IMG/VR virus record: IMGVR_UViG_3300027852_000202
Span: 1 to 20,087 of that record
Strand: one strand, 5' to 3'
Length of the DNA: 20,087 nt
DNA from: a virus
In this document: positions 11,471 to 18,650 of the stretch, piece by piece
How positions within the stretch are numbered: the first letter of the stretch is position 1
Layout of the letters: the number at the start of each line of letters is the position of its first letter
Made by a program: the position numbers and the translations under genes
The notes under the pieces: generated by a model
Told to the model about the DNA's origin: nothing
Databases searched by the model: none
Seen by the model: the letters and a program-made list of their open reading frames with translations, nothing else

Positions 11471-11761
11471 TCACCTTCTTCTTATGCTGCTTGATGCAGA
11501 TGAAGAGCTACTTGATAAGCTGCCAACGCCAAGCGCAAAACCAAAGTCATACCATCCGCCATTATTATAAATTGCATAAATAGATGTTGATTCAGAGAAT
11601 AACGAAACGATCCAAGCAAAAGGCAATATCATCCCATGCCATAGCCCATACCAAAAACCTACAGGATTAGTGGCTACAGCCTCACTAAACGTCACAGTAT
11701 CGGCGCATCCTGTAAACAACAAAGCAATACATATAACCCCTAATAATTTACTTATCTTCAT
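11471..11761 (-). CDS. Lipoprotein with membrane segment, 96 aa
   Basis: A probable envelope lipoprotein. A short basic N-terminus (MKISK) leads into a hydrophobic stretch and the lipobox LLFTGC, with the lipidated cysteine at residue 18. A second hydrophobic aromatic segment follows (VGFWYGLWHGMILPFAWIV), then AIYNNGGWYDFGFALGVG and a serine-run tail ending IRRR. Bacterial lipoproteins of this kind (GFWYGLWHG ... YNNGGWYDFGF) are common conserved hypotheticals. The start at 11761 is preferred over the ATG at 11776 because GAGGG lies 9 nt upstream. In a phage such a protein could change the host surface, for example in superinfection exclusion; that is inference. Confidence 0.75.
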   Translation of the reverse strand: MKISKLLGVICIALLFTGCADTVTFSEAVATNPVGFWYGLWHGMILPFAWIVSLFSESTSIYAIYNNGGWYDFGFALGVGSLSSSSSSASSSIRRR

Positions 11762-11894
11762 CTTCTTTACCCTCATATAAGCTCTCTCTGTCGCTGTCCT
11801 TGATTAAATTCATGGTATCTTCAAGGTTCATCGCTGCCAGGCTCTCTTGATCTGTTTCTTCTTCAAATCCTTGATCTATTTCTTCTTGTGTCAT
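11748..11894 (-). CDS. Small acidic protein, 48 aa
   Basis: A short frame with an excellent Shine-Dalgarno (GAGGTGA, 4 nt before ATG). It begins MTQEEIDQGFEEETDQES and ends SLYEGKEDEDK; more than a third of residues are D or E. The last codons contain GAAGATGAAGAT, which in another frame supplies the start codon of the lipoprotein, so the genes overlap by 14 nt. No motif is seen. DNA-mimic or anti-host roles are common for tiny acidic phage proteins but nothing here proves one. Confidence 0.6.
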   Translation of the reverse strand: MTQEEIDQGFEEETDQESLAAMNLEDTMNLIKDSDRESLYEGKEDEDK

Positions 11895-16814: not shown

Positions 16815-17258
16815 ATGGATAAGAGAGGATTTTCATGTATTGCACTGGACAACCCAAAGTCAGACGTTAATGTAGGCTCTGCATTACGTGCTGCTGGTGT
16901 TTATGGTGTTGATTTGATTGTCGCTAGCGGGACTAGATACAAGCACTCAGCAACAGACACTAGAAACCAGCACAAGCACACACCATTTATCAGAAATAAG
17001 AATGTATTTGATGCGCTGCCGCTTGATTGCGTTCCTGTTGCAGTTGATTTAGTTGAAAGCGCTATATCGCTGCCTGAATATAAACACCCAGAAAGGGCGT
17101 TTTATATATTTGGCGCAGAAGATGCAACACTAGGGAAAAGAGTAATAGATAAATGCAGAGACGTTATCTATGTTCCTACTGATGGATGTATGAATCTAGC
17201 AGCTACAGTTAATGTAATTTTATACGATAGATTAATGAAGCAGTTAACCACCCTATAG
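16815..17258 (+). CDS. SpoU/TrmH-family RNA 2'-O-methyltransferase, TrmL-sized
   Basis: A SAM-dependent methyltransferase with the knotted SPOUT fold. Motif 1 is N19-V-G-S-A-L-R25, motif 2 is IFGAEDATLG (98-107) and motif 3 is P121-x(5)-N127-L-A-A-T-V-N-V. All the landmark residues of the family are present. At 147 aa it has only the catalytic domain, like TrmL, which methylates the wobble nucleotide 34 of certain tRNAs, rather than longer TrmH or rRNA enzymes with extra RNA-binding domains. Two tRNA genes end just downstream on the other strand. That these or host tRNAs are the substrate is inference. The ribosome site is AGAGAG. Confidence 0.85.
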   Translation: MDKRGFSCIALDNPKSDVNVGSALRAAGVYGVDLIVASGTRYKHSATDTRNQHKHTPFIRNKNVFDALPLDCVPVAVDLVESAISLPEYKHPERAFYIFGAEDATLGKRVIDKCRDVIYVPTDGCMNLAATVNVILYDRLMKQLTTL

Positions 17259-17292: not shown

Positions 17293-17365
17293 TGGGGTGA
17301 CGTAGAGAATCGAACTCTTATCTTTCGGGCCACATCCGAACGCTTTACCATTAAGCTAACGCCAC
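17293..17365 (-). tRNA. tRNA-His (GTG), with an unusual T stem
   Basis: The minus strand folds as a cloverleaf. The acceptor is GTGGCGT with ACGTCAC (one G-T) and the D stem is GCTT/AAGC. The anticodon stem is TTCGG/CCGAA with loop ATGTGGC (anticodon GTG), and the T loop is TTCGATT. Discriminator C and CCA are encoded. The T stem has only 4 clean pairs (AGAG/CTCT), so the gene is a base short of canonical. The base before position 1 is T, not the G-1 that bacterial tRNA-His genes normally encode opposite C73. It may be functional, altered, or decaying. Confidence 0.75.
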
Positions 17366-17370
17366 ATAAT

Positions 17371-17444
17371 TGGTGGCCGGTACAAGGTTCGAACTTGTGA
17401 TACCAGATTCAAAGTCTGGTGTGTTACCACTACACTAACCGGCG
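17371..17444 (-). tRNA. tRNA-Gln (TTG)
   Basis: The minus strand gives D stem GTGT/ACAC and anticodon stem CCAGA/TCTGG with loop CTTTGAA (anticodon TTG, reading CAA). The T stem is ACAAG/CTTGT with loop TTCGAAC, with discriminator A and encoded CCA. The acceptor pairs GCCGGT with ACCGGC at positions 2-7, but the first pair is C-C. Weak 1-72 pairs are a known identity feature for glutaminyl-tRNA synthetase, so this need not be a defect. The 5-nt gap to tRNA-His means both come from one leftward transcript. Confidence 0.88.
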
Positions 17445-17523: not shown

Positions 17524-17532
17524 TGCTATACT
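17524..17532 (+). promoter_or_regulatory. Extended -10 promoter for the structured RNA
   Basis: TGCTATACT is an extended -10 element (TGnTATACT) on the plus strand. It needs no strong -35 and none is seen. Transcription would begin about 7 nt later, near 17539, which coincides with the first base-paired nucleotides of the RNA at 17538. This match of predicted start and fold is the main support. Confidence 0.55.
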
Positions 17533-17537
17533 AACCT

Positions 17538-17653
17538 TATCGGATTACGGGATTTGACCACCGCCGATACATAACTAAGTTTAATAACCCGTTTAGGGTA
17601 GCGTGGAGTCTTAGTTCTCCGGTCAAAACGTTACACCTAAGCGGGTTTTTTTT
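17538..17653 (+). ncRNA. Candidate structured RNA with two pseudoknots, unknown family
   Basis: Helices seen in the DNA are P1 TATCGG/CCGATA (17538-17543/17564-17569), stacked on CGG/CCG (17548-17550/17561-17563), and P2 CCCGTTTAGG/CCTAAGCGGG (17588-17597/17636-17645). P3 is GTAGCGT/ACGTTAC (17598-17604/17628-17634) and P4 is GGAG/CTCC (17605-17608/17617-17620). Two more perfect 7-bp matches use only bases these leave free. One is TTTGACC in the P1 loop with GGTCAAA between P4 and P3 (17553-17559/17621-17627). The other is AACTAAG in the P1-P2 linker with CTTAGTT in the P4 loop (17573-17579/17610-17616). Because no base is shared, all can form together as a double pseudoknot. A T8 run ends it. 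It may act as a trans RNA, a ribozyme-like element or a leader controlling the replication genes. It does not match pistol, twister or hammerhead patterns that I can recall. Confidence 0.65.
17588..17653 (+). terminator. Strong terminator before the replication genes
   Basis: P2 of the structured RNA (10 bp, one G-T, extendable by two A-T pairs) is followed at once by eight T residues (17646-17653). The GGAG ribosome site of the replication initiator begins at the very next base (17654). Expression of the replication genes from upstream must therefore pass this terminator, an attenuator-like layout. Confidence 0.8.
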
Positions 17654-17665
17654 GGAGCAAATAAA

Positions 17666-18316
17666 GTGAGTAAAAGAAAGTCATTTTTAATTCACATTGA
17701 TAGCTTAGACGTTTTAGACGATCTAACTGTTGAGCAGTGTGGTGAATTATTTCAAGCCATAAAAGCACACCATAAAGATGAAGAACTAGAATTAAACCCT
17801 CTTGTTAAAATAGCCTTTTCTGCATTCAAAAATCAATTTATTCGTGACGATGAAAAATATACTAAAACTTGTGAAAGACGAGCTATAGCTGGCTCTAAAG
17901 GAGGGAAGCAAAAGGTAGCAAATGCTAGCAATTGTAAGCAAAAGATAGCAAACGTAGCAGATAGTGTTAGTAAGAATGATAGTAAGAGTAAGAATAAGAG
18001 TGATAGTGATAATAAAAGAAAGGTATTTAAACCCCCGCTTTTTCAAGAAGTATGCGATTACATAACTGATAAAAAATACACCGTATCTGCAAATCAATGG
18101 ATGAGTCACTACGAGTCTAACGGATGGATGGTCGGTAGAAACAAAATGAAAGACTGGAAAGCCGCTGTAAGAACTTGGAATAATAGGAACAAAGAAAATG
18201 AAACCAATAAACGAAACACTCAACAATCTACCGCTGAGAGAGTCTCAAACAAACTTGATGAAATCGCAGCAAGAGACATTGCAGAAAACGGCTTTACCCA
18301 TACACTGGATAACTGA
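17666..18316 (+). CDS. Replication initiator-like protein (DUF6291-type N-terminus), GTG start
   Basis: Likely the origin-binding replisome organizer, equivalent in place to lambda O. Residues 1-75 (SKRKSFLIHIDSLDVLDDL..EQCGELFQAIKAHH) match the DUF6291 type found at the start of phage replication proteins. A low-complexity linker follows (about 76-118, KQKVANASNC, KQKIANVADS, then S/K/N/D-rich). Residues about 120-173 are the conserved C-terminal block, YITDKKYTVSANQWMSHYES followed by NGWMVGRNKMKDWKAAVRTW. The GTG start has GGAG 8 nt upstream. The helicase-loader gene follows with a long overlap. The origin may lie inside the linker-coding DNA. Confidence 0.75.
   Translation: MSKRKSFLIHIDSLDVLDDLTVEQCGELFQAIKAHHKDEELELNPLVKIAFSAFKNQFIRDDEKYTKTCERRAIAGSKGGKQKVANASNCKQKIANVADSVSKNDSKSKNKSDSDNKRKVFKPPLFQEVCDYITDKKYTVSANQWMSHYESNGWMVGRNKMKDWKAAVRTWNNRNKENETNKRNTQQSTAERVSNKLDEIAARDIAENGFTHTLDN
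17907..18031 (+). other. Candidate replication origin inside the initiator gene
   Basis: Two copies of AGCAAAAGRTAGCAAA (R is G or A) lie at 17907-17922 and 17937-17952, exactly 30 bp apart, with a looser AGCA echo after each. They are followed by a strand free of C from 17959 to 18031 (73 nt) made of GATAGT/AGTAAGA-like units. Iterons next to an AT-rich, purine-skewed strand inside the initiator gene is the layout of the lambda origin in gene O. The same bases code for a low-complexity linker, so a purely coding explanation remains possible. Confidence 0.45.
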
Positions 18317-18650
18317 GCTATTTAAATTGTTTCAGGCGCGTTATTTAGCTAAGTGGGCCACCCCTATAAGCGGTATAGAAGAAAGAGCCGTTAAAGAGTG
18401 GTCTATTGGCCTTGCAGGGCTATCTACAGCACAAATTAAGCATGGTGTTGATAGCTGGAATGAAGAATGGCCGCCTTCGTTGCCTGAATTTAAGAAAACA
18501 TGCTTAGGAATAACAGATCAAGATGATTGGAGACATAAAGTAGGGGCCTACAAGTTCAACGATACAAAGTGTTTACCAATAATGAAGGCTCAGGAAAGTA
18601 TAGCAAAAGAAGAAATGCAAAAAATTAGAGATAAATTGAATAAAGGTTAA
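18198..18650 (+). CDS. Lambda P-like helicase loader, 150 aa
   Basis: Likely loads the host DnaB helicase at the phage origin. Residues about 35-103 fit the lambda P-type pattern: WITELFKLFQARYLAKW, then EERAVKEWSIGLAGLSTAQI, then KHGVDSWNEEWPPSLPEFKK ending in TC. The P-S-L-P-E-F-x-x-x-C end is the most diagnostic part. At 150 aa it is shorter than lambda P (233 aa). The ATG at 18198 has AGGA 9 nt upstream and overlaps the initiator gene by 119 nt in another frame; an ATG at 18258 would shorten the overlap to 59 nt but still overlap. Some overlap is unavoidable because the conserved domain begins before the initiator stop. Confidence 0.75.
   Translation: MKPINETLNNLPLRESQTNLMKSQQETLQKTALPIHWITELFKLFQARYLAKWATPISGIEERAVKEWSIGLAGLSTAQIKHGVDSWNEEWPPSLPEFKKTCLGITDQDDWRHKVGAYKFNDTKCLPIMKAQESIAKEEMQKIRDKLNKG

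Follow-up and report, generated by a model that had tools for sequence, protein, structure and literature searches.

The RNA encoded at 17538-17653 of the window (the whole 20,087-nt stretch of viral DNA analysed here) is best read, with a probability that we put at roughly 0.55, as an attenuator-like leader of a phage replication operon that is locked by loop-loop pairing. It appears, from comparison of the sequences, to belong to a much larger and hypervariable family, the likeness being one of architecture and place, with a sequence similarity too low to prove homology. The evidence from sequence supports the fold, its covariation and the order of promoter, RNA, terminator and first ORF in many phages.

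Every helix described in the initial annotation, namely P1 to P4 and the two 7-bp pseudoknots (PK1 and PK2), is found at the coordinates claimed for it (Table 1), and no base is used in two helices, since both pseudoknots are disjoint from the nested helices. In the computed fold, the terminator hairpin gains two A-U pairs with the T run. The nested fold of the 116-nt RNA has an energy of -41.1 kcal/mol (z = -4.4) and none of 200 dinucleotide shuffles was as good. When the nested fold was held fixed and the unpaired letters were shuffled, one 7-bp complementarity arose in 1.9% of the shuffles and two disjoint ones in 0 of 20,000 trials. The RNA had also been claimed to start at its first paired base and to end at the T run, and both ends are supported by the sequence, the start being predicted at ~17538-17539 behind an extended -10 element. 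This element was not reported by a sigma-70 scan which also required a -35 hexamer. A simple terminator scan did not report the hairpin, probably because the 7-nt bulge and the interrupted stem lie outside the rule of the scan; the fold and the U run are clear.

Table 1 Features of the window RNA and its downstream genes, with homing-endonuclease-type genes at related loci (prefix L)
Feature	Position	Strand	Remarks
Extended -10 element, TG-C-TATACT	17524..17532	+	TG 17524-17525, TATACT 17527-17532; read from sequence
P1, 5' hairpin, 6 + 3 bp	17538..17569	+	17538-17543/17564-17569 plus 17548-17550/17561-17563; loop holds PK1 5' strand
PK1 5' strand, TTTGACC	17553..17559	+	P1 loop
PK2 5' strand, AACTAAG	17573..17579	+	Linker between P1 and terminator hairpin
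Terminator hairpin, P2 + P3 + P4 (10 + 7 + 4 bp)	17588..17645	+	Computed fold
P2, 10 bp	17588-17597/17636-17645	+	
P3, 7 bp	17598-17604/17628-17634	+	
P4, 4 bp	17605-17608/17617-17620	+	
PK2 3' strand, CTTAGTT	17610..17616	+	P4 apical loop
PK1 3' strand, GGTCAAA	17621..17627	+	7-nt bulge between P4 and P3, 3' side of terminator hairpin
T8 run, expected RNA 3' end	17646..17653	+	Read from sequence
GGAG, likely ribosome-binding site of next gene	17654..17657	+	Outside fold; read from sequence
First operon gene, DUF6291 (PF19808) protein, GTG start	17666..18316	+	Weak similarity to DnaD-like helicase loaders
Second gene	18198..18650	+	Similar to lambda P-like helicase loaders
Homing-endonuclease-type genes directly behind leader	L007:1115-1663, L027:1000-1785, L107:1987-2514, L150:1881-2417, L200:1273-2103		

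A covariance model built from the window RNA alone, with the nested helices only and the pseudoknots left out, matched sequences on two other viral contigs, L257:3346-3464 (E = 3e-22) and L007:992-1100 (E = 1.5e-8; L259 is the same contig as L007). As the search model contained no pseudoknots, their conservation is an independent test. PK1 is TTTGACC/GGTCAAA in the window, TTTGAGC/GCTCAAA in L257 and TTCGACG/AGTCGAA in L007, so that 20 of the 21 cells are paired over the three sequences and two pairs have two-sided changes. PK2, with AACTAAG/CTTAGTT, TAAATAG/CTATTTA and AACGAAG/CTTCGTT respectively, is paired in all 21 cells and four of its seven pairs have changed on both sides. Compensatory changes are thus present in both pseudoknot helices of these three sequences, the comparison through a covariance model and related sequences being one that the initial annotation had suggested. 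In the terminator helices, the six tabulated P3 pairs and the four basal P2 pairs all vary and all stay paired, and P1 is retained in L257 and is down to 4 bp in L007. Invariant sequence is limited to a few scattered bases. The register of the pseudoknots in this three-sequence table was set by hand from named strands, each verified to be present in its sequence; the strands were named explicitly because MAFFT and the model alignments misplace the PK2 loop. By this covariation, although three sequences are few, the structure of the window RNA is secure, and chance complementarity is effectively refuted as an account of that structure. L257 has TATAAT where the window has its -10 hexamer TATACT. 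An alternative pairing of ACGGG (17547-17551) with CCCGT (17588-17592), present in the window, is by eye absent in L007 and shortened in L257, and was rejected. When the window RNA alone was compared with phage records at the DNA level, chance matches were all that emerged, and an exact 19-base pattern found no match in viral contigs.

A simpler form of the element, first met in loci sharing the first gene of the window, begins with a hairpin that can pair through its apical loop, over 6-9 bp, with the apical loop of a terminator lying directly before the first ORF; we propose the name kissing-leader family for RNAs of this plan. The window RNA fits this plan through PK1, the 3' strand of which is in a bulge beside the apical stem, whereas that of the others is in the apical loop. 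Six weak matches to the window model (L032, L034, L036, L037, L047 and L050; E 0.015-0.17) are of the simple form and have perfect loop-loop complementarity. Among 1367 distinct terminators, 73 have at least seven bases complementary to the loop of an upstream hairpin, compared with 8.5 after swapping of hairpins and terminators. The first filter, from which AT-only matches were excluded by rule, gave 102 element entries. The Bacteroidetes promoter motif TAnnTTTG, which played no part in finding the elements, lies upstream in 78 of the 102 as against 30 of 1481 ordinary terminators. Removal of eleven likely chance hits by a hand list and merging of repeats of one site left a curated set of 79 elements. 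The set has 51 pairing sequences, and the motif precedes 66 of the elements; because some are near-copies from related contigs, these are not 79 independent cases. The loop pair in this set has a pairing energy of -9.3 kcal/mol with its own partner and -1.35 kcal/mol when swapped. The pairing of each element with itself is guaranteed by the family filter, which demanded at least six paired bases; the evidence therefore lies in the swapped controls and in how many different pairing sequences a single site can have. Pairing is retained through compensatory change both in the three sequences of the window subtype and, for the simpler form, between the phages lillamy9-1 (GTGAGAC/GTCTCAC) and mumin6-1 (GTGGAAC/GTTCCAC), which share an RNA backbone and differ by matched changes on the two sides.

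The initial annotation took the RNA to be a single knotted fold and not a switch, and this view gains from the covariation of both pseudoknots as well as from the wider family. In a leader that alternated between terminator and antiterminator, pairing with the own terminator arm should be stronger than with the arm of another element; over the 79 elements the energies are -8.2 kcal/mol (own) and -8.7 kcal/mol (swapped), whereas the terminator stem, used as positive control, gives -19.3 and -8.9 kcal/mol. There is no preference for the own arm, which speaks against a switching attenuator. Nor was any alternative pairing that excludes the terminator detected in the 79 elements. Neither does the RNA match a known class, as had been stated at the outset together with the suggestion of an Rfam search. 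With Rfam 15 at gathering scores, two tRNA genes of the window are matched and nothing in the RNA, for which the best score of a lax search was 17 bits against a gathering score of 47 (noise). The related loci gave no match either, lax searches of L013 and L238 finding nothing near the gathering score, and the covariance model of c4 antisense RNA (RF01695) had no match in the window. A search of the open-access literature, a scope outside which most subscription journals lie, found no description of the element. The family is absent from Rfam and apparently undescribed.

The position of the elements is as regular as their plan. They lie 4-60 nt before the first ORF, mostly that of a phage replication module, and frame an RNA of 90-117 nt between their own promoter and terminator. 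The distance from T run to ORF is mostly <30 nt, a space into which a further promoter would hardly fit. In the window, 12 nt separate the expected 3' end of the RNA from the GTG of the first operon gene, the product of which is, by its similarities, probably an initiator of replication or a loader. Apart from the promoter before the RNA, none is evident for the operon, because the tRNA genes upstream (tRNA-His and tRNA-Gln, 17293-17444) are on the minus strand; they lie behind a gene for a SpoU-type methylase (16815-17258). The gene following the RNA in L257 is DUF6291-like, as read from the sequence. L007 likewise has GGAG after the T run, and its next gene encodes an HNH endonuclease, with the replication gene after it. 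A similar first gene occurs in Vibrio and Pseudoalteromonas phages but is not preceded there by such an RNA, so the RNA is dispensable for that gene; the similarity itself suggests a marine gammaproteobacterium as the host of the window phage.

In several unrelated loci, genes of homing-endonuclease type (HNH, T5orf172/MUG113 and GIY-YIG) separate the leader RNA from the replication gene (Table 1), as if this junction were a hot spot for insertion. Many carriers have a small ORF of ~55-83 codons and no clear family in the same place (L260:986-1198, L194:2086-2313, L077:2516-2701 and L278-L320). Within the window, the part of the first replication gene that encodes a linker contains short direct repeats (17906-18012), few and imperfect, which resemble the origin repeats inside lambda O and make it a candidate origin. 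The PK1 strand TTTGACC occurs six times on the plus strand of the window (377, 1291, 1798, 10258, 15356 and 17553), where ~1.2 would be expected from window length alone, a figure that leaves composition and coding strand aside; GGTCAAA occurs there once, at 17621.

The carriers include cultured phages: Flavobacterium phages of the genera Muminvirus, Lillamyvirus and Elemovirus, the Cellulophaga phages phi18:3 and phi19:1, and Olleya phage Harreka_1. The same hairpin plan is seen in loci from Clostridia and Ruminococcus genomes (L200, L238) and in viral contigs with similar replication genes (L269, L331, L337 and L347). Two of the isolates have a second loop-loop element. That of mumin6-1 (L360, near 11680-11765; GTCGTCG/CGACGAC) precedes a NUMOD4 endonuclease gene, and that of phi18:3 (L361, near 23600-23690; CCTTCAC/GTGAAGG) precedes an early gene of unknown function, so that the two elements of one genome differ in pairing sequence and in operon. 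The annotations of mumin6-1 and Harreka_1 show no integrase, which makes lysogenic immunity unlikely as a general role; a tyrosine recombinase is annotated in phi18:3.

Loci with similar downstream DNA have RNAs that are either nearly identical or very different. Between L021 and L104 (the same contig as L009), the upstream DNA is 94% identical, the downstream DNA 99% and the RNA 75%, and the pairing sequence differs; for the isolates elemoA_7-9A and elemoA_13-1A, the corresponding values are 91%, 97% and 73%. Of 70 non-identical pairs, which are not independent of one another, 32 show clearly lower conservation in the RNA than in the downstream DNA, 34 show similar conservation and 4 show higher. 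One set of comparisons involving mumin6-1 or snusmum9-1 was excluded as the second element of those phages had been used. The pattern of these sequences would fit either exchange of the RNA as a cassette or selection for difference; alleles could arise from cassette recombination with no role in identity.

Three roles had been proposed for the RNA, a trans-acting phage RNA, a cis leader for replication genes and a ribozyme-like element. The cis leader fits the conserved position best; the ribozyme is unsupported. On this reading, the promoter before the RNA would give rise to a structured leader of ~116 nt, and an intrinsic terminator immediately before the replication operon would set its end. 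The hairpin at the 5' end would fold first, and its loop (with the linker as well in the window subtype) would then pair with the distal terminator hairpin to give one knotted fold. Most transcripts would be expected to stop at the T run, with the operon expressed by read-through; the RNA would thereby attenuate the replication operon, and the loop-loop lock would set the amount of read-through. More speculatively, free leader of the same pairing type might compete for the nascent loop, making control dependent on dose and specific to type, and such control might serve as copy-number feedback or to exclude like phages. Trans competition by pairing type would account for the allelic pairing sequences and for the differing elements within one genome. 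Against the attenuator view stands the observation that at least two further elements precede other operons.

The alternative that survives best, though we consider it unlikely, is a trans-acting phage small RNA whose place in the genome is secondary. The lock would protect both ends of the molecule, and its targets would lie elsewhere or in its own read-through mRNA, as with IsrK of Gifsy-1. A compact RNA framed by its own promoter and terminator is what this would predict, and in IsrK there is a precedent for a short terminated RNA acting in trans on its own read-through transcript (PMC4825925). However, if the RNA had no role in cis, its siting immediately ahead of the first ORF in many unrelated phages would be difficult to account for, and the pairing strands are engaged internally and are too variable in sequence for a common target.

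Less probable again is a processive antitermination RNA like put of HK022 or EAR, loading on RNA polymerase so that later terminators are read through, with the hairpin and T run acting mainly as a pause site. The location at operon starts, the two elements before different operons in both mumin6-1 and phi18:3, and a single fold without an alternative are all consistent with it. Yet a polymerase binder should, we would expect, keep fixed contact bases, whereas stems and pairing sequences here are hypervariable, and long stems followed by seven or eight T resemble real terminators.

We see little prospect for an RNA that primes replication or opens the origin through an R-loop near an initiator gene with possible origin repeats. 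The direct repeats at 17906-18012 and the position upstream of the replication operon speak for it, but the repeats are few and imperfect, nothing ties priming to a loop-loop lock that is conserved, and in several phages homing-endonuclease genes split the RNA from the replication gene. That the RNA is a ribozyme, or a riboswitch for a small molecule built on a knotted core, is very improbable. Compactness, two pseudoknots and a leader position might suggest one, but aptamers and catalytic cores keep their sequence whereas hardly any is invariant in the three homologues, no alternative fold is available to act as an expression platform, and neither the window RNA nor the related loci match Rfam. 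An ordinary terminator with chance complementarities can be dismissed almost entirely, since single 7-base matches do arise by chance (8.5 of 1367 swapped; 1.9% of window shuffles) but two disjoint ones do not in 20,000 shuffles, both pseudoknots have compensatory changes and the excess in the wider family is large.

Returning to the locked leader, a structured family at the head of replication operons in several bacterial groups, with cultured isolates among its carriers, lends itself to immediate tests of its role. Should the lock control termination, the design would be new among attenuators; should regulation between phages depend on the pairing sequence, that sequence would serve in their competition as an identity code made of RNA. 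We would venture, as a tentative extension that is itself unlikely, that there is a widespread class of RNA in which a 5' hairpin pairs with its own terminator to give a dose- and type-specific brake on replication, the pairing sequence being an identity code that diversifies under selection. Close phages, perhaps strictly lytic ones too, would then fall into exclusion groups coded by RNA.

Several known systems share part of this design. The put RNAs of HK022 and EAR of Bacillus are likewise structured, stand at the head of early or long operons and influence termination; to our knowledge, they have no terminator built into their own fold, and Rfam gave no match to them in the window. In satellite phage P4 (leader and CI RNA) and in the c4 systems of P1 and P7, short complementary stretches of the leader control early or replication genes by type-specific pairing. 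The complementary parts there are separate elements and serve prophage immunity, whereas several carriers here are without an annotated integrase and the c4 model is not matched in the window. Loop-loop pairing of ~7 nt in the control of replication, with loops that differ by compatibility type, is characteristic of the plasmid copy-number RNAs (ColE1 RNA I/RNA II, pT181 attenuation and the IncI pseudoknot leaders). In those, regulation is by an antisense RNA made from the opposite strand, whereas here a single sense RNA contains both partners, the loop of the terminator being one. The nearest described case, as far as the accessible part of its account allows us to judge, is IsrK (PMC4825925), a leader in the Salmonella prophage Gifsy-1. 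That part makes no mention of a loop-loop lock with the terminator; it describes one promoter giving both a short terminated RNA, which acts in trans to switch on translation, and a read-through mRNA. The layout read from the window sequence would fit such an arrangement, with a predicted short RNA, a terminator directly before an ORF and one promoter that may serve both forms.
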